Source of the DNA: Cytophagaceae bacterium
GTDB taxonomy: Bacteria; Bacteroidota; Bacteroidia; Cytophagales; Spirosomataceae
Assembly (NCBI GenBank): GCA_027491195.1
Contig: JAIXWQ010000008.1
Span: 1-64,000 of the forward strand
Direction of reading: 5' to 3'
DNA: 64,000 nucleotides
Positions within the stretch are counted from its first letter, which is position 1. The number at the start of each line of letters is the position of its first letter. The translations under genes and the position numbers were made by a program. The notes beneath the pieces were generated by a model. That model worked only from the letters and a program-made list of their open reading frames with translations. It ran no database searches and was not told the origin of the DNA. Positions 20,589 through 55,777 of this stretch are shown one piece after another.

Positions 20589-21079
20589 TCCGACTCATCA
20601 TCGCTTTGTTTTCCCTCGTTTTCTGCAGCTCCTGCATGCTACAATATGCCGCTGGACTGAGTCAAATCCAACAAGAAAAATACGAGCAAGCCACGTATAA
20701 TTTTTCTGTAGCTCTTTCAAAAGACCCTAAAAACCCAGAAATCTACTTCGCTAGAGCCTTTTCTCGCGGATCCATGGAACAATATTCGGGAGCTATTTCG
20801 GACTTAACTAAGGCCATTCGCCTCGATTCAACCAATGCTGACTATTACTTCTATCGCGGCTACTTCAAATCAAAATTAGGTAACGATAAAGGAGCCATTC
20901 GGGACTTTTCTAAATCGATTATTTACTACCCCTATTACCATGAGACCTATTATAATCGCGGAATAAATCTGATGCATTTAGGTCTATTGGACGATGCCTG
21001 TCTCGATTTTAAGACGGCGATTGAGCTGGGGGATACGCTTTCTTTGAAGTATCAGAGAAGTCTTTGTAAAAAAGAGTAG
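20585..21079 (+). CDS. TPR-repeat lipoprotein (short)
   Basis: A probable lipoprotein signal (MIRLIIALFSLVFCSSC, Cys17) precedes about four TPR units in 164 residues, e.g. EIYFARAFSRGSMEQYSGAISDLTKAIRL and ADYYFYRGYFKSKLGNDKGAIRDFSKSI. No specific role can be assigned. The start forms an ATGA overlap with mutS2. Its TAG stop (21077-21079) lies inside the first unit of a heptanucleotide array, so the repeat has replaced or created the 3' end of the gene. Confidence 0.78.
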   Translation: MIRLIIALFSLVFCSSCMLQYAAGLSQIQQEKYEQATYNFSVALSKDPKNPEIYFARAFSRGSMEQYSGAISDLTKAIRLDSTNADYYFYRGYFKSKLGNDKGAIRDFSKSIIYYPYYHETYYNRGINLMHLGLLDDACLDFKTAIELGDTLSLKYQRSLCKKE

Positions 21080-21100
21080 AGAGTATAGAGTAGAGAGAAG
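21073..21100 (+). repeat. Heptanucleotide array, locus A (4 units)
   Basis: Four tandem 7-bp units AGAGTAG, AGAGTAT, AGAGTAG, AGAGAAG in strict register. The first contains the stop codon of the preceding TPR gene. No inverted partner is obvious, so this is the simplest member of the family seen at 24.97, 35.76, 49.15 and 55.62 kb. Confidence 0.85.
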
Positions 21101-21187
21101 AGATGGTAAATGGAGGCTTCATTTGCTTTGAAAGCCTGCGAAAATTCGTGTTATTTGTAGCTTATTTTTAAATTTTAACGATTCATT

Positions 21188-21616
21188 ATGTCTATTGCAA
21201 AAACCGGCGACAAGGTTGCCGTACACTACACAGGTAAACACACCGACGGTTCTATTTTCGACTCTTCTGTAGGAAGAACTCCACTTGAATTCCAATTAGG
21301 TTCAGGAATGGTTATCAAAGGTTTTGATGATGGCGTAACTGGCATGGCAATTGGTGAGAAAAAAACCGTTGTTATCCCGGCTGCTGAAGCTTATGGCGAA
21401 CATTCTCCTGAAAATACGGTGACTTTAGAGCGTGCTCAAATTCCTCCACACATTGAATTAGAATTAGGCGCTTCGTTATCTATGCACCAAGATGGTGGTC
21501 ACGTTGTAGAAGTGGTGATCACTGATTTAACCGATTCTCACGTTACTTTAGACGCAAATCACCCATTAGCTGGCCGTGATTTAACTTTTGAACTTGAATT
21601 AGTATCGATCTCATAA
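21188..21616 (+). CDS. FKBP-type peptidyl-prolyl isomerase, SlyD-like
   Basis: Cytosolic prolyl isomerase/chaperone. The FKBP half is split around an insert-in-flap domain as in SlyD: VAVHYTGKHTDGSIFDSS, LEFQLGSGMVIKGFDDGV and MAIGEKKTVVIP at the start, and NHPLAGRDLTFELELV at the end. Length is 142; the histidine-rich metal-binding tail of E. coli SlyD is absent. It is first of a close run with the YfhO and YicC genes (gaps 3 and -4 bases). Confidence 0.9.
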   Translation: MSIAKTGDKVAVHYTGKHTDGSIFDSSVGRTPLEFQLGSGMVIKGFDDGVTGMAIGEKKTVVIPAAEAYGEHSPENTVTLERAQIPPHIELELGASLSMHQDGGHVVEVVITDLTDSHVTLDANHPLAGRDLTFELELVSIS

Positions 21617-21619
21617 GAT

Positions 21620-24058
21620 ATGAAAATTAATTTGCGCTCCTTTGCCCCCCATGGGATTGTCCTTTTGGGCTTTTTATTGATTGCTTTTATTTATTGTGGA
21701 CCCGTTCTACAAGGAAAAGTATTGATTCAGCACGATATTCAGCAAGCCCAGGCGGCGGCACAGGAGAGCTTACAGTACAAAGAAAAGACCGGCGAGGATG
21801 CTTGGTGGTCTAATTCGATGTTTGGCGGGATGCCTACTTACCAGATTTCTGGATCTTATCCGTATTCTATTTCTGCCAAAATCGGTTCTTTCATTACCAA
21901 CCTCTTACCATCTCCCGTTAATTTGCTCGTTTTGCAGATGTTGGGGATGTATATTTTGCTTTGGGCGATGGGAGCCTCCCCTATTTTAGGCTTCGCTGGA
22001 GCCGTTTTTTATGCCTTTGCGACCTATAATATGGTCATCATTCCAGCAGGACACACTTCCAAGGTATTAGCTTTAGCCTATGCCCCTATCGTTTTAGCGG
22101 GCGTAAAACTAGGCTGGGGAAATCGCAAATGGCTTGGAGCCGCCTTGTTCACGCTAGGAATGGCCCTCGAATTATACGCTAACCACGTACAGATAACGTA
22201 TTACCTTTTCTTCATCATCGGATTCTATAAAATCTATACCCTTTCTCAAGCCATCGTTCAAAAAACAGTGGTAGAATGGTTTAAGCGCGGATTATTGCTT
22301 GGTTTAGGATTAGTTTTAGCCTTAGGGACTCACTCGATGCGTCTTTGGAATAACTACGAATATGCCAAAGAAACGACGCGTGGCGCCTCCGAATTAAGCG
22401 CCAACAAATCACGTGGAGATGGTTTAGACCAAACTTACGCCTTCGATTGGTCCTATGGAATCGCCGAAACAGGTACCTTATTAATCCCGAATTTCATGGG
22501 TGGTGCCTCAGGTGGTGATTTAGGCGGTACCGCTTCGAATACATATCAAACAATGACGAATGCGGGCATTCCTGAAGAGCAAGCATTAGGATTCGTCGAA
22601 AAAGGTCCAGCTTATTGGGGTGAGCAAAGCTATACGGCAGGCCCAGCCTATGCCGGTGCTTTAGTCATTTTCTTATTTTTATTCGGAGCATTCTACATCA
22701 AATCCGCCGAAAAATGGTGGATCATCGGATTTACCGCCTTATTCATCACGTTCGCTTGGGGTAAATACTTCTTTTTCAATGGTCTTTTATTCCAATTCTT
22801 CCCATTATTCAATAAGTTCAGAGCCATCACCATGGTGTTGTCTTTCGTTCAATTAGGGTTCGTTAGTTTGGGCGTCTTAGGTTTGATTCGCTTCATTCAG
22901 CAAAAAGCGAGCTGGTCGGACATCAAAAAACCTTTATTGTATGCTGCTGGATTAAGCGGCGGGCTTGCTCTATTTTTCGGAATGGCGCCGGATTTATTTT
23001 TTGACTTTAAAGGACCAAATTTTGGAGGTGCTTTAATCCAAGATACGGGCTTAAATAACCAAATCTGGCGCTCGATTCAACTAGATCGCATCGAACTATT
23101 TCAGTCGGATGCCTTCCGTAGTTTCTTTATTGTATTGATAGGTGCAGGCATTTTATGGGTGGCTAGCACGGGGAAAGTCAAGAAATCCATTTGGTTAATT
23201 GCCTTGGTTCTGTTAGGTATTTTTGACTTAACTCCGGTGGCGAAACGTTATTTTGGCAAAGATTTCTTTGTTTCAAAAGCAACTTTAGATGAGCAAATCT
23301 TGCCTACGCCAGCAGACCAAAAAATCCTTCAAGATTCCACCCATTACCGGGTGGTTAACGTCGCAACCAATTTTATGAGCGACGCGACTACGTCCTATTA
23401 CCATCAGTCTTTGGGTGGATATCACGCAGCAAAATTACGCCGTTACCAAGAGTTAATCGAGAAACAGTTCACTGCAAATCCAGGACAAATGAACATCCTG
23501 AATATGCTGAATACGAAATACATTCTAAGCCCAGATTCAACTGGCCAATTAGCACCACAAACCAATCCAGGTGCTTTAGGAAATGCCTGGCTTGTCTCTT
23601 CGGTTCAAGTGGTTCCTACGGCGGATGAGGCCTTGAATGGAATTGGCAAAATCGATCCGCGTAACGTGGCATTAGTCGAGAAAAAAGATGCTTCTTTCGT
23701 TCCAGGAGCCAGCTTTAAAACGGACGGAACGATTAACCTAACTTCATACAAACCCAATCATTTAACCTACAGCTCAGACGCAAAGAACCCCAGTTTTGCC
23801 GTATTCTCTGAAATTTACTACCGAGGAAACAAAGACTGGAAAGCCTATATCGATGGTAAAGAAACGAATCACGTGCAAGCGGATTACGTTTTACGTGGTC
23901 TAGCCATTCCAGCCGGCAAACACACTATTGAGTTCAAATTCGCTCCTGTTTCTGTAATTACAGGAAATAAAATCGACTTAGCCGCTTCCATCGCGATGCT
24001 TTTATTTATTGCATTTGCCTTTTTTCAGGCAGCTAAGGCTAAAAAAGAAATACTATGA
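21620..24058 (+). CDS. YfhO-family polytopic membrane protein
   Basis: An 812-residue integral membrane protein with about a dozen hydrophobic segments and a large extracytoplasmic C-terminal part ending in one more helix. The Bacteroidota YfhO pattern is clear: [45 protein letters not shown] and a late NTKYIL segment. YfhO of Firmicutes is linked to glycosylation of teichoic acids (GT-C fold), so a glycosyltransferase-like role in envelope glycans is an inference. Confidence 0.85.
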
Positions 24059-24945
24059 TCTACTCCATGACGGGCTTTGGAAAATCCCAAAAAGAAATCC
24101 AAGACCTGCAAATCCGTGTCGAAGTTAAAAGTCTAAACTCGAAGTTTACGGATATATTTTGCCGTGTTCCTAAATCCTTTTCAGCTAAAGAAATAGACAT
24201 TCGGAATTACCTGACTCAACAATTAGAGCGCGGTAAAATGGAGCTAAATCTCCATATTCAAAAGAATAACGAGAACGTAGAACAAAGCATCCTACCTCAA
24301 GCGCAAATAGCTACTTATTTCGCTGAATTAAAGCGCTTCGCTACTGAATTAGGGGTCCAAAACATCGACGAAAACGCCTTGTATTTGCAGGCTATGTCCA
24401 TGCCAAGTCTTAATTCATCCGATCAATCACAGGAGAATGAAGAGGAAATAGAGGCCTTGTGGCAAGTCGTATTTTCAGCCGTTCAAGAAGCGGTAAAAGA
24501 ATGCAAAGAATTCCGTGCCCGCGAAGGCAAAGTGGTGGAAGATAAATTCCGTGAATACATCGCCTCCATCAAATCTGGTCTAGCACAGGTTTTAGAACAA
24601 GACAAAATCCGGATGCCGGGTATCCGCGAACGAATGCGCAATGCCCTTTTAGAACTTGGATTAAAAGAAGACTTCGACAAAAACCGCTTCGAGCAAGAAG
24701 TCGTTTACTACATCGAAAAATTTGATATCTCGGAAGAAAAAGTGCGTCTAGCCACTCACCTTGACTATTTCATCGAAATCCTAGAGGAAGGAAACGGCAA
24801 GAAACTGAACTTCATGGCCCAGGAAATTGGCCGCGAAATCAACACCATCGGCTCAAAAGCAAACGACTCTACCATTCAGCGCTTAGTGGTGAATATGAAG
24901 GATGAGCTGGAAAAAATTAAGGAGCAAACGGCGAATGTTTTATAA
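24055..24945 (+). CDS. YicC-family endoribonuclease
   Basis: A 296-residue cytosolic YicC protein: [11 protein letters not shown] and [13 protein letters not shown] at the N-terminus, and the C-terminal DUF1732 block with [33 protein letters not shown] and [15 protein letters not shown]. coli YicC is an endoribonuclease acting on small RNAs. The start overlaps the YfhO stop (ATGA). In many genomes yicC lies next to gmk, which is not present here. Confidence 0.92.
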
Positions 24946-24967
24946 TTGCGAAGCAATTTTGAAACGT

Positions 24968-25113
24968 TAAAGCAAAAAGAATAAAGCACAAATAATAAAG
25001 ATTGTATCGCCTTCGGCGATAAATTCTGAAGGATTTTTTCTCTCAACATAAAAAGAGCGGCAATTGCCGCTCTTTTTATTCCAAATTTATTCTTTATTCT
25101 TTATGCTTTATTT
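24968..25113. repeat. Inverted heptanucleotide element, locus B
   Basis: Left arm: five 7-bp units (24968-25002) such as TAAAGCA and TAAAGAT. Core palindrome ATCGCCTTCGGCGAT at 25006-25020. A terminator hairpin follows at 25049-25078. Right arm: four inverse units (25086-25113) such as TTTATTC and TTTATGC, ending two bases before the minus-strand stop codon of the EamA gene. It lies between convergent genes. Confidence 0.85.
25049..25078. terminator. Bidirectional rho-independent terminator
   Basis: A perfect palindrome, GAGCGGCA-ATTGCCGCTC within 25051-25076, flanked by A runs on the left and T runs on the right. It serves yicC and the convergent EamA gene. Confidence 0.9.
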
Positions 25114-25114
25114 T

Positions 25115-25978
25115 TTACAAAATAATCAAAGCTATCCCCGCACACCCCAATCCAATCCCTACCCATTGCTTCTTCGTTAATTGTTCTTTGAAGAAAATCA
25201 AAGCAGTAAAGGCACTCAAGAGAATCACACCCAGGTTATAAATCGTCAAGACAACTGCCCCATTTTGTTGGTAAGCATCTAATGCTTTTAATAAGAAATA
25301 AAAGGAGAAGAAGTTAGGCAAGCCTAAAGGTATTGCGGCTAATACAGATCGCAAAGACCATGTAACACCACCCGTGAACGTCCAATAGGCTAAAACAAGG
25401 GCAGAAGTAGCCATGGAGCCTAATAGAAGCATCAGCGTAAAGGAAATACTTCCTCCTACTTGCTGCACGATCGCCGCATTCAAATAATTAAAGGCTGTAT
25501 TGGTGATTCCATAGGCCACGAAAACGGCTACCAATGCCCAGATTACAGGCTTTTGGGTAGTTCCAGCACCAGACGGACTACAGAAATAAATGGCCGCAAA
25601 TGATAATAACAAGCCAGCAATGACGGAAATAGTCAAATCTCCACCAGTCTTCCAAATGAATAAATTCACCATCACCGGAATGACTAAGGAGATATTATTA
25701 GCTAAAGAAGTGGGGGCCATCCCGTTTTTTACGGTAGAATAACCAGATAATAAGAACGTAATCACGAAACCAATACCGATGCCTAATATACCCAAAGAAT
25801 AGCCTGTAGAAGGCCAATGGAAGGGTATTGCATCCATCTGATGGAAATACCCCGTTAAAAAACAAACAGGATAGTTCAGTAAAATGGCGATCCGTGTGTC
25901 GATATTAAACTTCGCGTGAGCACGAAAATTCACCAATAATAAAACGGAGAAAACGATGGTTAAAAGTAAGGCAATCAT
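25115..25978 (-). CDS. EamA/DMT-family transporter
   Basis: About ten transmembrane segments in 287 residues, arranged as two EamA-like halves. The C-terminal half is typical (NGAVVLTIYNLGVILLSAFTALIFFKEQLTKKQWVGIGLGCAGIALIIL across three segments). Substrates of this family are metabolites or drugs and cannot be predicted. Its start is one base from the ferrochelatase stop, so both are in one minus-strand transcript. Confidence 0.83.
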   Translation of the reverse strand: MIALLLTIVFSVLLLVNFRAHAKFNIDTRIAILLNYPVCFLTGYFHQMDAIPFHWPSTGYSLGILGIGIGFVITFLLSGYSTVKNGMAPTSLANNISLVIPVMVNLFIWKTGGDLTISVIAGLLLSFAAIYFCSPSGAGTTQKPVIWALVAVFVAYGITNTAFNYLNAAIVQQVGGSISFTLMLLLGSMATSALVLAYWTFTGGVTWSLRSVLAAIPLGLPNFFSFYFLLKALDAYQQNGAVVLTIYNLGVILLSAFTALIFFKEQLTKKQWVGIGLGCAGIALIIL

Positions 25979-25979
25979 C

Positions 25980-26990
25980 TTATGAATTCTTAACTAGGTC
26001 CTCTAACAAAGCAACATATTCTGGAGAATTGTTTAAGCTCTCCACTAATTGCCAATGTTCTCCACCCGCTTCTTCGAAGAGCTCTTTGTACTCCTCGCCT
26101 ACCTCGATAGTAGTTTCTAAGCAATCTGCAACAAAGGCTGGTGAGAAAGCTAAGATCTTCTTTTTGCCTTCTTTGACCAGTTTCTTAATGGTCTCATCCG
26201 TATAGGGTTGTAACCAAGGATCGCGGCCTAAGCGACTTTGGAAAGCTGTACCAAAAGTACCCGGTTTCAAGCCCATCTCTTTCGCAATTAAACGCGTAGT
26301 CTCATGGCATTGTGCCCGATAGCAATTATGATTTTTTTCGGTGATTGTTTCACAGCAGGATCCAAAGACACAGGTATTTTTTGTAATATCTCCTTTGCGA
26401 ATATGGCGTTCTGGAACGCCGTGGTAAGAGAATAAATAATAATCGAAGTCGACGTCTTTCTGGTAATTCGCTGCTTTATCGGCAAAGTATTTGGCAAAAA
26501 TAGGATGCTGGTAAAAATAGCTTACAATGGAAAGAGAAGGCATAATTTGCCAGTCTGACATGATTTCCATTACACGCTCATAAACGGAGCCTGTCGTAGC
26601 GGAAGCATATTGTGGGAAGAAAGGAATGACAATTAATTTCTTCAAATTAGCTTGCTGCATTTCAGCCATCACCGTCTTCAGATCCGGACTTTGGTAGCGC
26701 ATCGCTAGACGTACCATATAACCATCACCAAGATTCGCGGCTAAGGATGCACAAACGTCTTCCCCATAAAACTTCAAGGGAGAACCTCGTTCTTCCCATA
26801 ATTCTTTATAGATTTTAGCAGATTGAGGCGCTCTAAAAGGTGCTATAATTCCATTCACTAACAAGTAACGAAATGGATAGGGTATGTCGATGACACGACC
26901 GTCCATTAAGAACTCCCGTAAATATTTACGCACACTAGGTGTACCTGGATCATCTGGGGTTCCCAGATTCACTAACAAAACTCCGATCAT
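25980..26990 (-). CDS. hemH: Ferrochelatase
   Basis: Inserts ferrous iron into protoporphyrin IX (or coproporphyrin III). Family blocks: VLLVNLGTPDDP, the catalytic His190 in FSYHGVPERH, GTAFQSRLGRDPWLQPYTD, and FSPAFVADCLETTIEV with the conserved acidic residues. A cysteine-rich insertion follows the active-site His: C207, C212, C213, C223 and C228. Such clusters occur in Bacteroidota HemH as I recall, and could bind Fe-S, though this is not the cysteine pattern of the known 2Fe-2S ferrochelatases. A 14-bp palindrome lies 14 bases upstream. Confidence 0.93.
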   Translation of the reverse strand: MIGVLLVNLGTPDDPGTPSVRKYLREFLMDGRVIDIPYPFRYLLVNGIIAPFRAPQSAKIYKELWEERGSPLKFYGEDVCASLAANLGDGYMVRLAMRYQSPDLKTVMAEMQQANLKKLIVIPFFPQYASATTGSVYERVMEIMSDWQIMPSLSIVSYFYQHPIFAKYFADKAANYQKDVDFDYYLFSYHGVPERHIRKGDITKNTCVFGSCCETITEKNHNCYRAQCHETTRLIAKEMGLKPGTFGTAFQSRLGRDPWLQPYTDETIKKLVKEGKKKILAFSPAFVADCLETTIEVGEEYKELFEEAGGEHWQLVESLNNSPEYVALLEDLVKNS

Positions 26991-27003
26991 AGCTTTTATT
27001 AAA

Positions 27004-27017
27004 GCACAAATTTGTGC
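27004..27017. promoter_or_regulatory. 14-bp palindrome upstream of hemH
   Basis: GCACAAATTTGTGC is a perfect palindrome in the short gap between the DUF4249 stop and the hemH start. It may be an operator, or a minimal head-to-head pair of the GCACAAA heptad found in the intergenic repeats. Confidence 0.4.
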
Positions 27018-27025
27018 CTAAAAAA

Positions 27026-28174: not shown

Positions 28175-28175
28175 A

Positions 28176-30581: not shown

Positions 30582-30637
30582 AGAATATAGGTTAACAGAT
30601 GCAATTCTGTAAATAAACAAAAATTAAAGGAGAATCC

Positions 30638-34428: not shown

Positions 34429-34436
34429 ACCAACCT

Positions 34437-35762
34437 ATGGAAAGAAGAGAATTTTTACACAAAGGTGCCCTAGCTTCTCTAGGTACTTTAGCATTTAGCC
34501 CAAAATCGTATAGCAAGATTCTTGGCGCAAACGACCGTGTTCGCGTAGCCTGTGTCGGTTTTTCAGATCGCCACCGTGCCTCACACGTGCCGCCATTTAA
34601 GGCATTAGCGAAAGGAATGAATTTTGAAATGGTTGCCCTTTCTGATCTATGGAATCGCCGTAGAGACGAGGGTAAGGCCTTTTTAGAAAAAGAATTAGGA
34701 GGAAATATCCAAACCTACAGAAACAATGAAGAATTGTATTCTGCTAAAGGAATCGATGCTGTTTTCATCTCTACAGCTGACTTCCAACACGCTTTACACA
34801 CCATCGAGGCTGTAAAAGCGGGTTGTGATACCTACACGGAGAAGCCATTAGCTGAAACGATGGAAGATAACCGTGCTGTATTAAAAGCGGTGAAGGATTC
34901 TGGTAAAATCGTTCAAATCGGTTCACAACGTCGTTCAGGTGAGAACTATTGGGCAGCGGATGAATTTATCAAGTCGGGTAAATTTGGCGATATCAAAATG
35001 GTGGAATTAATGTGGAACGTGAATCAACCAGGTCGCTGGAGACGTCCTGAATTAACAAGCATCTTAAAAGAATCAGATATCGATTGGAAGCGTTTCTTAA
35101 TGAACCGTCCCGCAGACAAATTTGATCCACGTAAATACCTAGAATACCGTTTATTCTGGCCTTATTCATCCGGAATCCCAGGACAATGGATGTCTCACCA
35201 AATCGATACCGTTCACTGGTTCTCAGGCCTTTCTCACCCTAATTCAGTGGTGGCAAACGGTGGTATCTACCAATGGAACGATGGTCGCGTAAACGCAGAT
35301 ACGATGACGGTTGTATTTGATTATGGCCAAGGGAACAAAGGTTTCCAAGTTCAATTTACATCCCGCTTCTCTAACTCAGCGGGTGGAACTAAAGAAATTT
35401 ACTACTCAAATGGGGGTGAATTAAACTTAGACACCAACACGATCTCTCCTAACGGGGGTCTTCGTGAGCGCGAAGCAAAAGCAATGGGCTTACAAGCGAA
35501 CTTACTACCTACGATGAAAATCGAAGGAGCTAAAGTAGCAACTGACGCTGACACAGGTGGAGATGTTTTAACTTTCAACCACGTGAAAAACTGGATGGAA
35601 TGTGTTCGTTCTCGAAAAAAGCCTAACGCTCCTATCGAGGCTGGTTACCAACACTCGATCGCAACAATTATGTCGAATGCGGCTTACCGCACGGGACAAC
35701 GCGTCACTTTCGATGAGAAAACGCAAGAAGTGATGGCGGGTGATAAGGTGTTTAAGTACTAG
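34437..35762 (+). CDS. Exported Gfo/Idh/MocA-family oxidoreductase
   Basis: The N-terminus MERREFLHKGALASLGTLAF is twin-arginine-like (RREFL), so the enzyme is probably exported folded with its NAD(P) cofactor. The Rossmann domain (about 33-160) contains VRVACVGFSDR and the EKP motif in DTYTEKPLAETM; the C-terminal alpha/beta domain carries WMSHQIDTVHWF. It likely interconverts sugars and 3-keto sugars as partner of the DUF1080 hydrolase just upstream. Its TAG stop is followed at once by a 17-unit heptanucleotide array. Confidence 0.87.
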   Translation: MERREFLHKGALASLGTLAFSPKSYSKILGANDRVRVACVGFSDRHRASHVPPFKALAKGMNFEMVALSDLWNRRRDEGKAFLEKELGGNIQTYRNNEELYSAKGIDAVFISTADFQHALHTIEAVKAGCDTYTEKPLAETMEDNRAVLKAVKDSGKIVQIGSQRRSGENYWAADEFIKSGKFGDIKMVELMWNVNQPGRWRRPELTSILKESDIDWKRFLMNRPADKFDPRKYLEYRLFWPYSSGIPGQWMSHQIDTVHWFSGLSHPNSVVANGGIYQWNDGRVNADTMTVVFDYGQGNKGFQVQFTSRFSNSAGGTKEIYYSNGGELNLDTNTISPNGGLREREAKAMGLQANLLPTMKIEGAKVATDADTGGDVLTFNHVKNWMECVRSRKKPNAPIEAGYQHSIATIMSNAAYRTGQRVTFDEKTQEVMAGDKVFKY

Positions 35763-36083
35763 ACAGTGGTCAGTGGTCAGTGGACAGTGGTCAGTATCCG
35801 GTAGCCAGTAATCGGTAGTCGGTTGTCCGGAGTATAGAGTATAGATAAGAGAGTATAGAGTAGAGATTAAAGAGTAATGATAATTTCAAAATGGGGGCGC
35901 AAGCCCCTTTTTTGTTTATCAGAGTGGAGTGTTAAAGGGAAAAAATAAAGCATAAAGCACAAAGAATAAAGTTGGAATCAAAATGGAGGTGAAAGCCACC
36001 ATTTTGATGTTTTATGCTATTTTTAGTTCCTACAACTTGAATACTGGTTTTATTCTTTGTGCTTTATGCTTTATGCTTTAATA
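35763..36083. repeat. Composite heptanucleotide element, locus C
   Basis: Fills most of a 359-bp intergenic space. 35763-35881 is 17 consecutive 7-bp units in one register that change from ACAGTGG and TCAGTGG through TCGGTAG to TATAGAG and TAAAGAG. A terminator follows at 35891-35914. Units 35945-35972 (ATAAAGC type), a palindromic core at 35977-36008 (ATCAAAATGG paired with CCATTTTGAT) and inverse units 36049-36083 complete it. Bases 35946-35970 are a perfect 25-nt reverse complement of 36049-36073. Confidence 0.9.
35891..35914 (+). terminator. Rho-independent terminator downstream of the Gfo/Idh/MocA gene
   Basis: GGGGC-GCAA-GCCCC (35894-35907) followed by six T. It lies inside the locus C repeat element. 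Confidence 0.88.
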
Positions 36084-44051: not shown

Positions 44052-44060
44052 TCAACAAAC

Positions 44061-44101: not shown

Positions 44102-44107
44102 TCTAGT

Positions 44108-46854: not shown

Positions 46855-46865
46855 AACCGCCTACT

Positions 46866-47231
46866 ATGAGAATACTAATTGCAGACGATGAACCAGCTAT
46901 CTTAATGTCTTTGGACTTTCTAATGCGAAAGGAAGGACATCAAGTGTATGTGGCACGAGATGGAGAGGAAGCCATCCAACTAATCGAAAAAGAATTGCCG
47001 GAAGTGATCATTTTGGACATCATGATGCCTAAAATTGATGGATATGGCGTATGCTCACAAGCAAAAGCCCTATCTCCTTCTTACCTCCCTAAAATCATTT
47101 TTATTTCTGCCAAAATCGCTGATTCAGACATCGAACGAGGCTACCAGGCAGGAGCCGATTTATACGTACCAAAACCTTTTTCCAATAGAGATTTATTGAA
47201 AAAAGTCCATGAATTAAACCTACAAAGCTAA
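46866..47231 (+). CDS. REC-only response regulator
   Basis: A CheY-like receiver of 121 residues: acidic D7, D8, phosphoacceptor D51 in VIILDIMMP, Lys in YVPKPF. No output domain follows. Located 11 bases after the symporter-kinase and 17 bases before acs, it is surely the cognate receiver. Vibrio CrbR, by contrast, has a LuxR-type DNA-binding domain, so the output here must go through protein interaction or another regulator. Confidence 0.9.
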   Translation: MRILIADDEPAILMSLDFLMRKEGHQVYVARDGEEAIQLIEKELPEVIILDIMMPKIDGYGVCSQAKALSPSYLPKIIFISAKIADSDIERGYQAGADLYVPKPFSNRDLLKKVHELNLQS

Positions 47232-47248
47232 AACTAATCAATACTGTT

Positions 47249-49138: not shown

Positions 49139-49149
49139 AAGAGCTTCGC

Positions 49150-49414
49150 ATTAGATTAGAGATTATAGAGTAGAGAGTAGAGAGTATAGAGTAGAGAGTA
49201 GAGAGTAGAGAGTAGAGAGTATAGATTTAAAGCATAAAGAATAAAGAATAAAGAATAGAGAATAGAGAATAGAGCACAAAGCATAAAGATGGAATCGCCT
49301 GCGGCGATACATTCTTTGAACTTTGCTCTTTGAACTTTGAACACTGTCCACTGACTACTGTCCACTGGCTACTGTCCACTGACTACTGACTACTGGCTAC
49401 TGTTCACTGGCTAC
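49150..49414. repeat. Composite heptanucleotide element, locus D
   Basis: Most of the 421-bp space between convergent acs and symporter genes. 49150-49289 is 20 consecutive 7-bp units (TAGAGAG and TATAGAG, then ATAAAGA, ATAGAGA, ACAAAGC). A core palindrome ATCGCCTGCGGCGAT follows at 49294-49308. Then 49317-49414 has 14 inverse-type units (TGAACTT, then TGTCCAC, TGACTAC, TGGCTAC). All units within each block keep an exact 7-bp register. There is no coding capacity beyond repeat-derived frames. Confidence 0.92.
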
Positions 49415-49415
49415 T

Positions 49416-49451
49416 ATAAAAAAAGGGATCGAAATTCGATCCCTTTTTTTA
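49416..49451. terminator. Bidirectional rho-independent terminator
   Basis: GGGATCGAAATTCGATCCC (49425-49443), with seven A before and eight T after. It shares the CGAAATTCG centre with the terminator at 55.67 kb. Confidence 0.92.
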
Positions 49452-49491
49452 TTCAAATCGCTGCTGCGCAGCTTAGTCAAAAAGTCAACAG

Positions 49492-49561
49492 AAAACTTTT
49501 AGGTAAGGGTTTACAAAATTATTTGCGTAGCAAAATTTTAAAACCCTTAGCTGAAAGTTTT
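49492..49561. repeat. Long interrupted inverted repeat at the 3' end of the SGLT-like gene
   Basis: AAAACTTTT (49492-49500) and TAAGGGTTT (49504-49512) pair with AAACCCTTA (49541-49549) and AAAGTTTT (49554-49561). The last arm contains part of the stop codon region of the symporter gene. It may be a second termination or mRNA-stability hairpin. Confidence 0.55.
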
Positions 49562-51230
49562 ACCAGAAGTATGTATACAACGCCACAATTCCCATCACCA
49601 CGATCACTGTTCCAGCGATGAAAGAAGGCTCCAATTTGAACATTTTGGCATCAATCTCCAGACCTTTCGGATTGTTCTTACTTTCTGGATCAGCTAGTGA
49701 AATAATCACCATAGAAACCACGCAGAAGATAAATACCCAACCCATACGGTCCATAAATGGAATCATGTAGACATCGCCATCTAAGAACGCCGTGTAGAAC
49801 ATACAATCGTTCACGCCTGTCCAAGCAGGAATATATTTAGTTAGGATAGAGAAAGCTAAACCGCCAATCATTGCGAATAAGGCAGCGTTTGAAGTCGTTC
49901 TTTTCCAGAAGAAGCCCATAATGAATAAGGCAAAAATACCTGGAGAAACGTAACCTGTGTACTCTTGAATGAATTCAAAACCACCTTTTTTGTCGATACC
50001 CATGAATGGAGCAATCGCAATAGCTAATACCATCGCAGCTACCACAGCGATACGTCCGATATTCACTAATTGCTTCTCATTCGCCTCTTTGTTAATATAC
50101 TTTTTGTAGATATCAAGAGTGAAGATCGTAGAGATTGAATTCGCTTTACCCGCCATAGATGCCACTACCGCTGCCGTTAAAGCCGCAAAAGATAGACCTT
50201 TCAAACCTGCAGGTAACAAGTTCAATAATACTGGATATGCGCTATCTTGGTTGATTACGCCATCTTTCAACATCTCTTGTTGGAACATGCCATCCTTGTG
50301 TAATAAATACGCTGCAATACCTGGTAAAACCACGATGATAGGCATTAACATTTTTAAGAAAGCGGCGAACAAGATACCGTTACGCGCGGTTGGAAGATCA
50401 GCTCCTAAAGCACGCTGCGTGATGTATTGGTTACATCCCCAGTAGTTCAAGTTGATAATCCACATACCACCGATTAATACCGTTAGGCCAGGAAGCGATG
50501 GATAATTCGCGTTGTCTTTGTTTAAGATCATGTGGAAATGCTCCGGCGCTTTGGTCATCAAATGATTTAAACCGCTCATCACACCATCGCCACCGAAGTG
50601 ATCAGACACCATTTGTAAAGCTAAATAGGTTGTTGCTAAACCACCTAAGATTAGGAAGAATACCTGAATTACGTCTGTAAAACCGATTACTTTCATACCG
50701 CCTAAGGTGATAATTACCGCGAAAACGGACATTCCGATCATACATACTGTGAAGTCGATTCCGGAGATGGTGGTTACTGCCAAAGCTCCTAAGTACAAAA
50801 TCGATGTCAAATTCACCGCTACGTATAATAATAACCAGAAAACGGCCATAATTAAACTAACGGTAGGAGAATAACGCTGCGACAAGAACTGAGGCATCGT
50901 GAAGATTTTGTTCTTCAAATAAATAGGCATGAAGAAAATCGCTACGATTAAAAGCGTTGCAGCTGCCATCCATTCGTACGTAGCGATGGCTAGACCCAGT
51001 CTAAAACCATTTCCTGACATACCAATAAACTGCTCTGCAGAGATATTAGAGGCAATTAATGAAGCTCCAATCGCCCACCAGGTTAAAGAACCTTCCGCTA
51101 AAAAGAAGTCATTTGAATCAGATAATTCGGATTTTTTCTTGTTATAAATCCAATAGCCGTAACCGGCAACTACCACGAAATAAAAGAGAAATACGAGGTA
51201 GTCAAGTGTTTGTAAACCGTTTGATTGCAT
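49560..51230 (-). CDS. SGLT-like sodium/sugar cotransporter
   Basis: Solute:sodium symporter of 556 residues with about 14 helices. LDYLVFLFYFVVVAGYGYWIY, WWAIGASLIASNISAEQFIGMSGNGFRLG (sodium-site TM1 region), YLKNKIFTMPQFLSQRY and GGMWIINLNYWGCNQYITQRALGA are typical of the vSGLT (galactose/glucose) branch. Sugar or inositol uptake coupled to sodium is expected; the specific substrate is not known. Unlike the symporter at 44.3 kb it carries no kinase. Confidence 0.88.
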   Translation of the reverse strand: MQSNGLQTLDYLVFLFYFVVVAGYGYWIYNKKKSELSDSNDFFLAEGSLTWWAIGASLIASNISAEQFIGMSGNGFRLGLAIATYEWMAAATLLIVAIFFMPIYLKNKIFTMPQFLSQRYSPTVSLIMAVFWLLLYVAVNLTSILYLGALAVTTISGIDFTVCMIGMSVFAVIITLGGMKVIGFTDVIQVFFLILGGLATTYLALQMVSDHFGGDGVMSGLNHLMTKAPEHFHMILNKDNANYPSLPGLTVLIGGMWIINLNYWGCNQYITQRALGADLPTARNGILFAAFLKMLMPIIVVLPGIAAYLLHKDGMFQQEMLKDGVINQDSAYPVLLNLLPAGLKGLSFAALTAAVVASMAGKANSISTIFTLDIYKKYINKEANEKQLVNIGRIAVVAAMVLAIAIAPFMGIDKKGGFEFIQEYTGYVSPGIFALFIMGFFWKRTTSNAALFAMIGGLAFSILTKYIPAWTGVNDCMFYTAFLDGDVYMIPFMDRMGWVFIFCVVSMVIISLADPESKNNPKGLEIDAKMFKLEPSFIAGTVIVVMGIVALYTYFW

Positions 51231-51291
51231 AGAGTTTTAAAGTTAATTAAGGTCTTGAATTGCCTAAATTAAGATTTTTATCGGAAATGTA

Positions 51292-52842
51292 CTAATTCCA
51301 AAGTTCTGGTTTCACCAAAACCACTTCCTCCTCCCGATCCACGATGATCATCCCAGGAAGCAAATCCTTCGTTTTACGAACGTATTTCTTTGAGGTAACA
51401 ATCACGGGGCAAAGGGATTCTGTTTGTCTTTTGGAAAAATAGGCCGCTAAACTCGCTGCTTTTTCGATGACGAAGGCGGGGACTGTTTTATTTTGGGGGT
51501 TTCTAACAATCACGTGAGAACCGGAGACATCTCTTGCATGCAGCCAGATATCCTGTTTCTTCGCATATTTCAGCGTTAGCAAATCATTGTTTTTCGCATT
51601 CTTACCGACCCAAATCACCCATCCTTCTACCTCAAACTGTTTAAAGGGGAATTCTTCGGCTGATTTTTTATTAGTTGCGAGAGCCAAAAAAGGCTTCAAG
51701 CCCTTTCGGGTTTCAACACAGGCTAAGGCTTCTAATTTTTCAATAATTTCAGCTATTTCTTGCTTCTTACGCGCTATATTCTCTTCCCAATGCGCCAATT
51801 CCTTACTGAAATTCTTAGCCTTTCGGTAGTAATTCTCCGCATTCGCGGCTGGGCTCAACGTAGAATTCAGCTTTATGGTGATGGGTTGATTTCGATAAAA
51901 ATCCTCTAAAGTCACCTTACTCTCCCCTTCCGGAATGAGATGCAAATAGGCCATCAAAATATTACCAATTTCCTCAAAAGGCACATTCGTTTCCCGAATC
52001 ACCTTCTGCTTCTCGAGCTCTTGTAAATACAATTGGGATTTAACTAAATTTCTTTCCAGGCCATCCATCACCTGACTTTTCTCTCGTGTAAACTCCCCTA
52101 CCGAATAATGCAGCACATAAAACTGGTTTAACGCGGCAATGGGATCGGAAGTTTCAAAAAGCGAATCCTCTGAAGGGGGGAATAAAGTAAACCCAATTCC
52201 TTTAGGCGTCTTAACCACATAAAAATACCCCTCATCGAGTATTTCAAGCATCTTTTGCAGCAAGGCCCAACGGTCTTTGAGATGTAGGCTCTCGAAACCT
52301 TGGGCAGCGAGCCAAGCTTGACCTTCTTTTCCTAAGGTGGGGAAAAGGGGGAAATAGTCGCCATCAGCGGCTTGGAAGGCTTCGAAACTTTGATCGATTG
52401 ATCTTGATATAGCAGATAATACAAGCTCATCGTCCTTTTTAAGGCGCTTTTGGAACTGAGAATCATATTCCCCATCACGGTATAATAGTAGATTAGCCCG
52501 GTTGCCAAAAAGTTTAAAAACTAGCACATAATCGCCCAAGAAATGAATCCCAAAGGCTCGCTCATTTTCGTACATCTCTACTTCCTGGACTTCGGCCAGG
52601 AGTAAATCGGAGAAAAGATCGATGGAATTTCGGCCAGCTCGGTGAAAGGATTCCGGGAATTGTAAGCTAGAAAACTGGGGACCCAAAGAACATTTGATGT
52701 AGAAATCTTCGCCGTTTTGGCGTTCAAAACCTAAAACCAACTCGTCCTTCTCTTGCGAAAAACACTGTTTTAAGCGCGAATACATCAATATCTGCCGCAA
52801 ATGGCTCGATAAAATCCGCAGAAAATAATAGTTATTATGCAT
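51292..52842 (-). CDS. NFACT-family RNA-binding protein (RqcH-like)
   Basis: A 516-residue homologue of RqcH/NEMF: NFACT-N start (SRLKQCFSQEKDELVLGFE), central coiled coil (about 260-400, e.g. NLVKSQLYLQELEKQK, EENIARKKQEIAEIIEKLEAL) and C-terminal NFACT-R (DIWLHARDVSGSHVIVRNPQNK). RqcH recruits tRNA-Ala to add alanine tails on stalled chains. By eye, the Asp-Arg pair needed for tailing in RqcH reads Glu-Arg (NERAFGIHF), and the chain is shorter than B. subtilis RqcH, so tailing activity is uncertain. Confidence 0.83.
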   Translation of the reverse strand: MHNNYYFLRILSSHLRQILMYSRLKQCFSQEKDELVLGFERQNGEDFYIKCSLGPQFSSLQFPESFHRAGRNSIDLFSDLLLAEVQEVEMYENERAFGIHFLGDYVLVFKLFGNRANLLLYRDGEYDSQFQKRLKKDDELVLSAISRSIDQSFEAFQAADGDYFPLFPTLGKEGQAWLAAQGFESLHLKDRWALLQKMLEILDEGYFYVVKTPKGIGFTLFPPSEDSLFETSDPIAALNQFYVLHYSVGEFTREKSQVMDGLERNLVKSQLYLQELEKQKVIRETNVPFEEIGNILMAYLHLIPEGESKVTLEDFYRNQPITIKLNSTLSPAANAENYYRKAKNFSKELAHWEENIARKKQEIAEIIEKLEALACVETRKGLKPFLALATNKKSAEEFPFKQFEVEGWVIWVGKNAKNNDLLTLKYAKKQDIWLHARDVSGSHVIVRNPQNKTVPAFVIEKAASLAAYFSKRQTESLCPVIVTSKKYVRKTKDLLPGMIIVDREEEVVLVKPELWN

Positions 52843-52864
52843 CGCTTAGCTTAAATTTAACCTT

Positions 52865-53449
52865 ATGTCATTGATACCCGACTCCTATCTCACTATCGCG
52901 AAACCTGCTGAAGGACTTTACAAAGATAAAGGAAGTAAATTCATCAGTTGGGCATATCCGGTGAAAGATTTGGAAGAAATCAAAAGCCATTTAGCCTCCC
53001 TAAAAGAAGCACATCCCAAAGCCAGACATATCTGTTATGCCTATCGCTTAGGTTTTACGCTAGAGGACGCTCGCTCGAATGATGACGGAGAACCGTCAGG
53101 AAGCGCTGGAAAACCTATTTTAAATACGATTTTATCACACAATGTACACTATGTTTTAGTGGCAGTGGTGCGGTATTTTGGAGGAACGTTGCTGGGGGTG
53201 CCTGGCCTGATTCATGCCTACAAGGAAGGGGCCATCGATGCGTTAGCGAACGCGGAAATTTACGAAAAAGAGCCCATGAGCGTCCGGAGCATCGAATTTA
53301 ACTATGCGCAGATGAATGAGGTAATGAAAATCTGCAAGAAACACCCCATCCAAATAGTAAATCAACTTATTGATAACCTTTGTACCTTTGAATTGACCTA
53401 TCCATCTCGGCACGCCGCGGAGATTGATGCCTCTCTAAACAACCTATGA
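52865..53449 (+). CDS. YigZ/IMPACT-family protein
   Basis: The N-terminal UPF0029 domain shows the family blocks KGSKFISWAYPV, ARHICYAYRLG, SNDDGEPSGSAGKPIL and VVRYFGGTLLGVPGLIHAY. The smaller C-terminal DUF1949-like part follows to 194 residues. Homologous to eukaryotic IMPACT and E. coli YigZ, of unclear molecular function (possible translation-related role). Overlaps the next gene by four bases. Confidence 0.92.
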   Translation: MSLIPDSYLTIAKPAEGLYKDKGSKFISWAYPVKDLEEIKSHLASLKEAHPKARHICYAYRLGFTLEDARSNDDGEPSGSAGKPILNTILSHNVHYVLVAVVRYFGGTLLGVPGLIHAYKEGAIDALANAEIYEKEPMSVRSIEFNYAQMNEVMKICKKHPIQIVNQLIDNLCTFELTYPSRHAAEIDASLNNL

Positions 53450-54273
53450 ACAGTATAAAAATTTATTTAACTGCCTCTGGGATTCAATTACAGAATCAAC
53501 AGGGCCTCGTTTGTTCCGTTCCAGGAAATTGGGATGACTTTATTAACCAGAAGAATTTATTCGAGGTTTGCTCGATGCACCTGTTGAATGGTTTACAGGC
53601 CAAAATCGATAATCCCCTTTGCCCGATCGATTCACAGGAAATTTGGGCAGCTGGCGTGACCTATTTGCGCAGCAAAGTAGCCCGAATGGAAGAATCCAAA
53701 GAATCAGGCGGCGATACTTTTTACGATAAAGTCTACGATGCCGAAAGGCCTGAAATCTTCTATAAAGGAAACCGCTTGCGTTCCGTGGGTACAGGTGGTA
53801 AGGTGCGTATTCGGAAGGATTCGATGTGGAATGTGCCTGAACCTGAATTGACCTTATTCGTTAATAAACAGGGTGAATTAGCCGGCTACAGCATCGGTAA
53901 CGATATGAGCTCCCGGGATATCGAGGGCGAAAATCCCTTGTATTTGCCTCAGGCTAAAGTATACGATGCCGCTGCCGGCCTCGGCCCCTGCCTTTTGGTG
54001 ACGGAAAAACCCTTAGCACCTAGCACGGTAATCTCCATGGAAATCTACCGAAACGGAGAAAGCGTATTCCATGGAGACACCGAAATCTCTCAAATGAAGC
54101 GCTCCCACGCCGAATTAGTGGATTATTTAACCCGCGAAATGTCCTTCCCAGCTGGTGTTTATTTGATGACCGGAACTTGCATCGTTCCTGATCCTCCATT
54201 CACTCTACAATCTGGGGACAGCATCCACATTACGATTGAACCTATTGGAACCCTTATTCAAACCGTTGCCTAA
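53446..54273 (+). CDS. Fumarylacetoacetate hydrolase-family protein, probably a 2-keto-3-deoxy sugar-acid dehydratase
   Basis: FAH-fold enzyme of 275 residues: AAGVTYLRS, RPEIFYKGN, PEPELTLFVN (metal-binding Glu residues), YSIGNDMSSRDIEGENPLYLPQAKVYD and GPCLLV. It overlaps by one base (TAATG) an alpha-ketoglutaric-semialdehyde-type dehydrogenase. That pairing is known from the Weimberg-like pathways (Caulobacter XylX and XylA), in which an FAH-family dehydratase turns a 2-keto-3-deoxy-pentonate into 2,5-dioxopentanoate. Substrate (xylonate, arabinonate or a hexarate derivative) is inferred from context only. Confidence 0.78.
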   Translation: MNSIKIYLTASGIQLQNQQGLVCSVPGNWDDFINQKNLFEVCSMHLLNGLQAKIDNPLCPIDSQEIWAAGVTYLRSKVARMEESKESGGDTFYDKVYDAERPEIFYKGNRLRSVGTGGKVRIRKDSMWNVPEPELTLFVNKQGELAGYSIGNDMSSRDIEGENPLYLPQAKVYDAAAGLGPCLLVTEKPLAPSTVISMEIYRNGESVFHGDTEISQMKRSHAELVDYLTREMSFPAGVYLMTGTCIVPDPPFTLQSGDSIHITIEPIGTLIQTVA

Positions 54274-55631
54274 TGAATTATACAGACGCTTCGATTGCAG
54301 AAATCGACGCAGCCATAGCCGCTGCGAAAGCCGCATTCCCCATTTACCGTCGTATTTCAGATGCGAAACGCGCTGAATTTCTTCAAGCCATTTCGCGTGA
54401 GATAATGGCAATCGGTGATGACTTAATCCAAACAGCTTGCACAGAATCACATCTCCCGGAAGCTCGAATCACGGGCGAAAGGGGTCGCGCCACAGGTCAA
54501 ATTCAGGCTTTTGCCGATTTCATCTCCAACCCAGCCTGGAAAAAAGAAATCCACGATCCAGCTCAGCCGGACCGCACGCCACTTCCTAAACCGGATTTAT
54601 TTCAAACTCAAATTCCTTTAGGCCCTGTCGCTGTTTTTGGCGCTAGCAACTTCCCGCTTGCCTTTTCTGTGGCCGGTGGCGATACCATTTCAGCACTTGC
54701 AGCAGGCTGTCCTGTTATTTTCAAAGCCCATCCGGCTCACCCTAAAACAGGGAATCTTGTGGGTGGCGCTATATCTAAAGCAGTCACTTCTTGCGGTTTA
54801 CCTCAAGGCGTATTTAGTTTAATTCACGGTGCTTCTCATGCGGTGGGATCCCATTTAGTGCAACACCCTGAAATTCAAGCAGTTGGATTTACCGGTTCTT
54901 ATCGGGGTGGAAAAGCCCTTTATGACCTAGCGGTGCGCAGACCACATCCTATTCCTGTGTATGCGGAAATGGGGAGTGTGAATCCCGTGGTACTTTTATC
55001 CGATAAAATCGCTGAAAACCCTGCAGCCCTCGCTGCTGGTTTAGCTGGTTCGGTTTGTATGGGAGTAGGACAATTTTGCACCAATCCTGGCTTACTGATT
55101 CTTCAGAAAAAGGATGCTGGATTCTTAGATTTATTAGCTGCAGAATTAGACAAATTGCCTTTAGGCACGTTTTTAACCCCAGGAATTTCTGATGCTTATG
55201 CAGCAGGCGTTTCAAATCTGGCGCAACATTCGAAAAAATTAACTTCGCGTGATTTACCTTCCCCTGCCCTATTTGTGGCTGAAGCTGCGACTATTAATCG
55301 AGTAGTTTTAGAGGAAGTTTTTGGCCCTTGCACAGTGGCCATTTTAGTGGAAGATAAAGCAGAAATGATTTCCTTCATCGAATCATTAGAAGGTCAGTTA
55401 ACTGGAACTATTCACGGAACTAAAGCGGAAATTTCTGAGGAACTGGTCGATGCTCTTTTACAAAAAGTAGGTCGCTTGCTTTTCAACGGCTTCCCTACTG
55501 GCGTAGAAGTTTCTGGCGCTATGGTTCACGGAGGTCCATTCCCGGCGACTACAGACTCAAGGAGTACAAGTGTAGGAACACAGGCTATTTATCGGTTTGT
55601 GAGGATGGTGTGCCTTCAGAATAGATTATAA
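54273..55631 (+). CDS. 2,5-dioxopentanoate (alpha-ketoglutaric semialdehyde) dehydrogenase-type aldehyde dehydrogenase
   Basis: Aldehyde dehydrogenase of the KGSADH branch: FQTQIPLGPVAVFGASNFPLAFSVAGGD, FTGSYRGGKALYDLAVRRPHPIPVYAEMGSVNPV (catalytic Glu) and GVGQFCTNPG with nucleophile Cys269, GTIHG near the end. Total length is 452 residues, shorter than the approximately 500-525 of related enzymes as I recall, mainly ahead of the catalytic core. It would oxidise 2,5-dioxopentanoate to 2-oxoglutarate. The TAA stop (55629-55631) lies within the first ATAAAGC unit of repeat locus E. Confidence 0.86.
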   Translation: MNYTDASIAEIDAAIAAAKAAFPIYRRISDAKRAEFLQAISREIMAIGDDLIQTACTESHLPEARITGERGRATGQIQAFADFISNPAWKKEIHDPAQPDRTPLPKPDLFQTQIPLGPVAVFGASNFPLAFSVAGGDTISALAAGCPVIFKAHPAHPKTGNLVGGAISKAVTSCGLPQGVFSLIHGASHAVGSHLVQHPEIQAVGFTGSYRGGKALYDLAVRRPHPIPVYAEMGSVNPVVLLSDKIAENPAALAAGLAGSVCMGVGQFCTNPGLLILQKKDAGFLDLLAAELDKLPLGTFLTPGISDAYAAGVSNLAQHSKKLTSRDLPSPALFVAEAATINRVVLEEVFGPCTVAILVEDKAEMISFIESLEGQLTGTIHGTKAEISEELVDALLQKVGRLLFNGFPTGVEVSGAMVHGGPFPATTDSRSTSVGTQAIYRFVRMVCLQNRL

Positions 55632-55777
55632 AGCACAAAGAATAAATAATAAAGGCGGAATAAAAAGGGCTCGAAATTCGAGCCCTTTTTTACATTTATG
55701 AAATATTTATTTCTGAATCTATCGCCATAGGCGATCTATTCTCTATACTTTATTCTTTGTGCTTTATGCTTTAAACT
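55621..55777. repeat. Inverted heptanucleotide element, locus E
   Basis: Left arm 55621-55655 (ATAGATT, ATAAAGC, ACAAAGA, ATAAATA, ATAAAGG), a terminator at 55661-55691, core palindrome ATCGCCATAGGCGAT at 55721-55735, then six inverse units 55736-55777 (CTATTCT, CTATACT, TTATTCT, TTGTGCT, TTATGCT, TTAAACT). Both flanking stop codons, of the aldehyde dehydrogenase and of clpB on the other strand, are inside the arrays. Confidence 0.9.
55661..55691. terminator. Bidirectional rho-independent terminator
   Basis: GGGCTCGAAATTCGAGCCC (55667-55685) with flanking A and T runs, between the convergent aldehyde dehydrogenase and clpB genes. Confidence 0.9.

Follow-up and report, generated by a model that had tools for sequence, protein, structure and literature searches.

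Drifting heptameric arrays behind stop codons, and a dispersed hairpin-terminator cassette flanked by them, in a bacterium of the Cytophagaceae

We analyzed a stretch of 64,000 nucleotides (the window), which comprises bases 1-64000 of a 540,707-base contig (JAIXWQ010000008.1) in the 2.49 Mb, 14-contig genome of a Cytophagaceae bacterium (GCA_027491195.1). Tandem Repeats Finder and an inverted-repeat search located arrays of seven-nucleotide units, or heptads, at five loci of the window, designated E1 to E5 (21073-21103, 24968-25117, 35764-36080, 49153-49415 and 55628-55778). In line with a preliminary description of this DNA, every one of the five starts across a stop codon or no more than 23 nt past one, three of them (at 24968, 49153 and 55628) lie between convergent genes, and four (E2, E3, E4 and E5) are accompanied by a terminator-like hairpin with the G+C stem and the A- and T-tracts of an intrinsic bidirectional terminator. 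We report that such arrays recur at gene 3' ends throughout this genome with a constant period and, bar a few exceptions, the same place and strand polarity, that their units turn over at orthologous sites, and that in one clade of the genus they form the arms of a dispersed composite element. The features of the five loci are:

E1, 21073..21103, plus strand: single purine-sense heptad array (AGAGTAG/AGAGTAT), spanning the stop codon of the TPR gene at 20585-21079
E2, 24968..25000, plus strand: left heptad arm (TAAAGCA...AATAAAG) of a composite
E2, 25006..25020, plus strand: hairpin 1 (ATCGCC-TTC-GGCGAT), whose stem differs among copies with the pairing kept
E2, 25048..25079, no strand assigned: hairpin 2, a perfect palindromic terminator, from the inverted-repeat search
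E2, 25085..25117, minus strand: right heptad arm, spanning the stop codon of the minus-strand gene at 25115-25978
E3, 35764..35827, plus strand: CAGTGGT-type array, immediately 3' of the stop codon of the gene at 34437-35762
E3, 35830..35880, plus strand: GAGTATA-type array
E3, 35886..35915 (approximate, by reading), plus strand: terminator, found at the orthologous place in 7 of the 8 close relatives read
E3, 35940..35971, plus strand: left heptad arm of a composite copy that is without hairpin 1, from the inverted-repeat search
E3, 35977..36008, no strand assigned: inner hairpin of the composite (ATCAAAATGG...CCATTTTGAT)
E3, 36049..36080, minus strand: right heptad arm of the composite, from the inverted-repeat search
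E4, 49153..49225, plus strand: AGAGTAG-type array
E4, 49228..49288, plus strand: AAAGNAN-type array
E4, 49294..49308, plus strand: hairpin 1 (ATCGCC-TGC-GGCGAT)
E4, 49313..49415, minus strand: pyrimidine-rich arrays built from different heptads, first CTTTGAAC and after it CACTGTCC/CACTGGCT
E4, 49416..49452, no strand assigned: perfect palindromic terminator, from the inverted-repeat search
E5, 55628..55654, plus strand: left heptad arm, spanning the stop codon TAA of the gene at 54273-55631
E5, 55662..55691 (approximate, by reading), no strand assigned: hairpin 2, a terminator
E5, 55721..55735, minus strand: hairpin 1, the composite being inverted relative to E2
E5, 55737..55778, minus strand: right heptad arm, spanning the stop codon of the minus-strand gene at 55771-58371 (ClpB-like)

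The five copies had been described as one family of foldback elements. Matched purine- and pyrimidine-rich arms are indeed present at 24968, 35940-36080 and 55628, but the array at 21073 is single, with neither a terminator hairpin nor a second arm to be seen, and at 49153 the second half (CTTTGAAC, CACTGTCC) pairs poorly with the first (-14.7 kcal/mol). In four relatives (L345, L348, L349 and L351, from G014, G002, G023 and G006) the spacer orthologous to E4 measures 1.22-1.34 kb and by eye contains an apparent further gene; hence, E4 may represent two gene-end arrays fused after gene loss. What had been taken for one family falls into two layers, simple arrays on the one hand and a single composite element on the other.

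A census was taken over 464 kb, namely the window and 20 spaced 20-kb stretches from four large contigs only, with one scoring rule applied to period 7 and to control periods alike. It recovered 43 period-7 arrays, and 0, 5, 0, 3, 0, 1 and 1 arrays of periods 5, 6, 8, 9, 10, 11 and 13, respectively. At a stricter threshold period 7 gave 20 arrays and its double, 14, gave 17, with every other period from 4 to 16 giving at most one; one Markov shuffle per stretch, scored at this threshold, gave no period-7 array against the 20 in the real DNA. These arrays thus share the excess of period 7 over other periods that marks the heptameric long simple sequence repeats of bacteria, and its restriction to 7 and 14 among periods 4-16 counts in favor of arrays grown by slippage. 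Extrapolation yields about 230 heptad arrays per genome (Poisson range 167-311). Contigs of this assembly (G000) end in or beside long heptad arrays (C11 324105-324211, C12 24011-24101, and C9 26757-26973 of 27029), so that the counts given here may be too low and assemblies may be interrupted by arrays.

The units fall into four families, AGAGTAN, AAAGNAN, NAGTNNN (e.g. CAGTGGT and TAGTCGC) and AATGGTN, which can succeed each other within one array. GGG is absent from all 14 of the commonest units of the genome, which therefore lack the G-tracts of a quadruplex-capable repeat, but rare arrays, such as that of CAGTGGG (C5 34132), do contain it. Just 3 of the 43 arrays contain a run of four or more A, contrary to the regularly placed A-runs from which DNA bending had been proposed. 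Bending with 21-bp phasing, or a protein that binds RNA or DNA and covers 7 nt, would accord with the strict period, and the available passages of MacGregor 2015 (PMC4679880) report CspB on heptamer repeats at one protein per unit. Nevertheless, three of the four unit families have no run of more than three A, and the complete change of unit among species at a constant period, detailed below, is awkward for a sequence-specific binder, so that we consider such a site very improbable.

With genes taken as open reading frame (ORF) calls of at least 90 codons, and the two arrays at stretch ends excluded from the gap counts, arrays are present in 13 of 30 convergent and 6 of 101 codirectional gaps, and in none of the 60 divergent ones. 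The difference between convergent and divergent gaps is strong (p = 7e-8), with similar results at cut-offs of 60 and 120 codons. At a threshold of 10, 36 of 45 arrays are intergenic with both neighbors called, as in the mainly intergenic heptameric repeats of other bacteria; 7 overlap called ORFs and 2 lie at stretch ends. For 30 of the 36, a gene 3' end is the nearest gene boundary. With a purine fraction of 0.42-0.58 left unclassed, the coding strand is purine-rich in 26 of these 30, reversed in 1 and unclassed in 3, and the polarity is kept (15 versus 1 reverse) where more than 10 nt separate the gene end from the first base of the array. Where two arrays neighbor each other, the purine array precedes the pyrimidine array in all 13 pairs of the 464-kb sample. 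The proposal of a 3'-end-associated family is hence borne out genome-wide, and, in this genome, so is its corollary that the elements should not be equally frequent in genes and promoters; in seven congeners, with 3 of 44 divergent gaps occupied, the latter holds more weakly. The exceptions that overlap ORFs comprise two loci within N-terminal leaders and a third across a called start. In L013 (5643-5829) an ORF with the appearance, by eye, of a TonB-dependent receptor has four arrays in its N-terminal leader, and in L015 (13441-13467) one array lies in a leader that by eye resembles a signal peptide; both are in the stop-free orientation, and at both the heptad repeat encodes part of the leader.

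Four arrays in the window lie across the stop codon of their own gene (stop codons at 21077-21079, 25115-25117, 55629-55631 and 55771-55773). The stop codon coincides with the first unit in 4 of 6 overlapping cases, which is near-trivial, and arrays beginning beyond the stop are in register with it in 5 of 15 cases (p = 0.05); we accordingly rejected the stop codon as the source of the first unit. A related idea is that the arrays serve as a translation backstop, with the coding strand chosen for units that, 7 not being a multiple of 3, would present stops in all three frames. The purine strand does carry 0.81 stop codons per 7 nt against 0.18 on the other strand, and closes all three frames in 29 of the 43 arrays against 5; its density is slightly above that of column-permuted arrays (0.69; 0.81 was reached by 0.0045 of permutations), and the two loci in ORF leaders are read in the stop-free orientation. 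However, a purine-rich unit with one T nearly always contains a stop, polarity holds far from the gene end, the register beyond the stop is unclear, and the units GGGAATC and GGGGAYT, stop-free on both strands, are nonetheless reported on the coding strand behind stops in the available passages of Rehm et al. 2015 (PMC4692102). We regard a backstop as the least credible of the explanations discussed here.

According to blast searches, alignment and folding, one dispersed composite of about 150 nt is represented in the window by three copies: E2, E5 and the inner part of E3. An alignment of 14 copies from this genome gives the order heptad arm AAAGCATAAAGCACAAAGAATAAAG, TTGGAAT, hairpin 1, a linker with GAAATGTTT, the terminator hairpin, ATTCCAAC and the inverted heptad arm. 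The stem of hairpin 1 varies by copy (ATCGCC/GGCGAT, ATCCCC/GGGGAT or GTTGC/GCAAC). In nine of the 26 predicted pairs, distributed over both inner hairpins and the arms, one or more copies have both partners changed; a pair beside the terminator A-tract, for example, reads A-U in 8 copies and C-G in 6. Searched with a covariance model that comprised the core but not the arms, this genome gives 49 matches and nine relatives give 34, 42, 38, 21, 20, 20, 14, 13 and 10, numbers that are upper bounds as some places were matched on both strands. The composite is carried by 10 of the 38 genomes of the genus, and the other 28 have at most two weak core matches each; 12 of the 13 weak loci (from 15 in all) that were printed at the match resemble ordinary terminators without heptad arms. 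The unit drift around a shared core noted in the preliminary description is seen across both copies and genomes: AAAGCAT arms flank the core in the printed copies of G000, G014 and G023 and AAAGTTC types do so in G019, G045 and G047, while two copies from G021 have either AAAGCAT or AAAGTTC types and one from G007 combines AGAGTAG with AAAGCAT. The arms therefore differ among copies as well as among species.

Repetitive extragenic palindromic (REP) sequences and bacterial interspersed mosaic elements (BIMEs), with their RAYT transposases, are dispersed palindromes at gene 3' ends, often between convergent genes. Unlike these, the present elements have heptad arms, and the Y1_Tnp domain had no match at an E-value of 0.001 in this genome and the nine other carriers, against 5 of 14 control genomes with a match; the linked REP-type transposase that had been envisaged was thus not found, and REP-type dispersal of the composite was rejected. 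The composite might still be a non-autonomous mobile element, comparable to miniature inverted-repeat transposable elements or REPs, that spreads heptad arms. Such an origin would accord with a core that is shared by numerous unrelated gene ends (49 model matches here, 10-42 in the nine relatives), with its presence in both orientations, and with sites that hold the composite in some species and a different foldback in others. Conversely, simple heptad arrays occur outside the composite, both in this genome and in species without clear copies, the carriers lack a Y1_Tnp match, no target-site duplication was seen by eye at the E2 junctions, and the stems differ among copies yet remain paired, unlike those of freshly copied elements. 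These points render a mobile element improbable.

The orthologous spacers, for which species were counted by eye, reveal how far the units turn over at fixed sites. At E2, the convergent spacer between YicC and EamA, 25 species were readable and 19 have heptads. The close clade has units of the AAAGCAT or AAAGTTC types as well as AGAGTAG; six outgroups have AGGTAAT, four species have ACGTTGG, and two have AGTTAAG/AGAGTGA types. At E5, the ClpB spacer, heptads are present in all 8 close relatives read, including this genome, and in none of the 18 others. Among seven close relatives the E1 array ranges from one or two up to about 9 units, three outgroups have no array at this place, and at E3 the shared terminator stands between differing arrays in 7 of 8 close relatives. 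Other repeated hairpins (TAGAGACGCGAT..ATCGCGTCTCTA and CCCCAGGC..GCCTGGGG) were noticed in the same convergent spacers of outgroups that are without heptads there (L078, L082, L061 and others).

Where two arms exist, they appear to change together across species, as own arms pair better than arms swapped between species: -25.7 versus -16.6 kcal/mol at E2 (0.1% of permutations, p = 0.001; 9 species) and -27.0 versus -22.9 kcal/mol at E5 (4.2% of permutations, p = 0.042; 8 species), although these p values are optimistic as the orthologous species share ancestry. The E2 comparison used 9 of the 25 readable species and excluded G007, G008 and a further ten with heptads, the majority of which have no inverted second arm; that at E5 used 8 of 26, being all species with heptads there. 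Within this genome, swaps among the AAAG-type arms of 19 foldbacks gave no advantage of own arms (p = 0.47), so no locus-specific pairing constraint is seen, and such pairing was rejected here.

Taken together, we propose, with a probability of about one half, that these arrays chiefly grew by slippage and were retained where they did no harm. Heptameric simple-sequence arrays would lengthen, shorten and swap their unit by replication slippage at fixed spots behind stop codons, and in this genome would be excluded from promoters and nearly all coding sequence, with the purine-rich strand kept as the coding strand. Two convergent genes each ending in an array, or an inverted copy, would then produce a spacer with a purine-rich 5' and a pyrimidine-rich 3' arm. 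In one clade of the genus such arms came to flank a hairpin and a bidirectional terminator, and the resulting cassette of about 150 nt was probably copied to some tens of gene ends by recombination, perhaps gene conversion, between copies. If the spacer is transcribed, the foldback RNA from either strand would close a long helix around the terminator, reinforcing termination and protecting the 3' end.

That such transcripts would fold back, as had been predicted, is supported by computed RNA folds, whose z-scores are -8.8 for E2, -8.6 for the E3 composite and -8.1 for E5; heptad-only spacers reach -9.9 in G014, and -3.4 and -3.7 in two short examples from G002 and G007. These hairpins may therefore reinforce bidirectional termination. 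No canonical terminator is visible in the heptad-only spacers of G014, G002 and G007, and their strong computed folding suggests that a heptad helix can replace it. This leads to the chief rival of the slippage explanation, that selection maintains the foldbacks as bidirectional terminators or as protectors of the 3' end, with heptads as the cheapest rebuildable helix that offers a pyrimidine-rich 3' arm on either strand. It would account for the purine-5' polarity of all 13 neighboring pairs, which resembles that of A-tract/T-tract terminators, the replacement of the terminator hairpin by a heptad-only foldback at E2 (G014 and G002) and at E5 (G007 and G002), the joint change of arms across species, and the two-sided changes in both inner hairpins of the composite. 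However, a terminator's need for a pyrimidine 3' arm explains polarity in the foldbacks and not in single arrays, and partnerless arrays are found at E1, in several codirectional gaps and at E2 in six species. Moreover, 9 of the 13 array-bearing convergent gaps already possess a canonical terminator, array length varies freely, and neither an own-arm advantage within the genome nor an appreciable covariation term is seen. Hence, we hold selection for termination or protection to be possible, though unlikely as the principal cause.

Several observations weigh against parts of the account that we prefer, besides the shared ancestry behind the arm permutations and the lack of an own-arm advantage within the genome. 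Slippage by itself leaves the choice of 7 as the period unexplained. A pyrimidine array followed by a purine array is contained in 4 of the 56 clusters of a larger set that was enriched for hits. In the congener sample (seven genomes of the genus, 400 kb), arrays occupy 4 of 21 convergent, 9 of 89 codirectional and 3 of 44 divergent gaps (p = 0.2), the divergent cases being one sound (G019), one beside masked rRNA-like sequence and one AT-rich; 16 of 26 congener arrays are nearest to a 3' end (9 purine-rich, 3 pyrimidine-rich and 4 unclassed on the coding strand) and 10 are nearest to a gene start, and the congeners G015 and G016 are without arrays in 40 and 60 kb. At E2, the six species with AGGTAAT-type units have by eye a one-sided array with no inverted partner, and the RNAalifold covariation term of the composite is about zero (-0.03). 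Finally, a simple scan finds a canonical terminator in 9 of 13 array-bearing and 10 of 17 array-free convergent gaps, with gap stabilities of -30.4 and -30.8 kcal/mol per 100 nt with and without arrays, respectively; in light of these frequent terminators and the equal per-base stability, a terminator role of the heptads is not required.

Over 1.04 Mb from 80 named Bacteroidota loci, 21 arrays of period 7 compare with 13, 16 and 11 of periods 6, 8 and 9, a slight excess only, so that strong enrichment is lineage-limited. In G026, from another family of the order, 119 kb (L252, L267 and L291-L294) contain 23 period-7 arrays with units such as GGCAGTC and TTTCGAA and some inverted pairs, along with 8, 5 and 5 arrays of periods 8, 6 and 9. 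We also considered loss of the hairpin nuclease SbcCD as a cause. SbcD has no match in the 38 genomes of the genus, as against 13 of 14 control genomes (8 over the cut-off), and SbcC gives short sub-threshold matches only. Among 14 other families of the order, SbcD exceeds the cut-off in 6 and is sub-threshold in 4 more; the six positive families yield 3 period-7 arrays in 543 kb, and the eight without SbcD over the cut-off yield 27 in 623 kb, of which 23 come from G026. Period-7 arrays are missing from several SbcD-free lineages, namely the three well-sampled families G029, G030 and G033 and, within the genus, G015 and G016. On this small number of lineages, loss of SbcD is at most permissive, and it was rejected as the cause.

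As to other possible identities, an Rfam scan of the window at the gathering score had no match for the heptad elements; its sole match was the small signal recognition particle RNA (RF04183, 6347-6435, minus strand, 63.1 bits). The stretch 49150-49410, the sole one tried, had no blastn match in plasmid and phage collections, and an origin from either was rejected on this basis. A separate 29-nt inverted repeat at 49492-49561 adjoins the end of a sodium:solute symporter gene and has counterparts by eye in G007, G019 and G047.

Heptanucleotide-type simple repeats include the short tandemly repeated repetitive sequences of cyanobacteria. Mrazek 2007, as summarized in the available passages of PMC4679880 and PMC4692102, found an excess of heptanucleotides among long simple repeats and proposed slippage; PMC4692102 also mentions heptanucleotides of Calothrix. 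The passages of these two papers that deal with long 7-nt simple repeats do not contain the 3'-end polarity, foldback and composite seen here. Within its available passages, PMC4692102 describes G-rich heptamers, GGGAATC and GGGGA(C/T)T, in Xanthomonas and Nostoc, with 186 and 183 arrays in the two Xanthomonas, and notes a preference for the non-coding strand in Nostoc. Our arrays resemble these in being numerous, intergenic and close 3' of stop codons, in varying in length and sequence between the same genes, in forming some inverted pairs, and in the purine- or G-rich coding strand behind the stop (26 of 27 scoreable arrays here; 9 against 3 in congeners). They differ in having at least four unit families, common units without G-tracts, full unit turnover between congeners, no occupancy of 60 divergent gaps, and a composite with inner hairpin and terminator. 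PMC4679880 likewise reports, in the passages available, TAACTGA arrays in Beggiatoaceae, Cyanobacteria and five Bacteroidetes, which are comparable in being intergenic, in having other heptamers nearby and in the array-free spacers of relatives, but which have one fixed sequence and lie mostly upstream of start codons, whereas ours drift and lie behind stops. Intergenic DNA in general is enriched in inverted repeats, according to the passages available of PMC4060949. A full-text literature search, outside which most subscription journals fall, yielded, by title and opening of the abstract, no paper on heptad foldbacks of Cytophagales. Nevertheless, the designation "undescribed genome feature" is too strong, as heptameric arrays close behind stop codons have been published for Xanthomonas and Nostoc (PMC4692102) and heptamer arrays for Bacteroidetes (PMC4679880). 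To these the present analysis adds a turnover of units that is independent of sequence and takes place at fixed 3'-end sites, the presence of several unit families in one genome, and the composite cassette.

This comparison raises the broader proposal, which we offer tentatively and consider doubtful, that a sequence-independent, transcription-coupled process gives rise, in several phyla, to heptad arrays where gene 3' ends are free of ribosomes. The conserved properties would then be the period of 7, the place behind the stop and the purine- or G-rich coding strand, and not the unit, be it GGGAATC in Xanthomonas, GGGGAYT in Nostoc, or AAAGCAT, AGAGTAG, AGGTAAT and ACGTTGG in this genus. R-loops, formed by purine-rich RNA re-annealing to the pyrimidine template where ribosomes are gone, might provide both the polarity and the slippage-exposed DNA, and would fit single arrays, foldbacks and the published G-rich arrays alike. 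The non-coding-strand preference in Nostoc, noted in the accessible part of PMC4692102, led us to lower our estimate slightly.

The turnover of the unit, with period, place and, in this genome, strand remaining constant, separates the cause of these arrays from any particular sequence, such as a quadruplex or a protein site. Thus, the question of why the unit should be seven nucleotides long becomes one that can be tested by comparing congeners. Moreover, the composite shows how such arrays, with no transposase in evidence, can come to form the arms of a dispersed cassette of hairpin and terminator.

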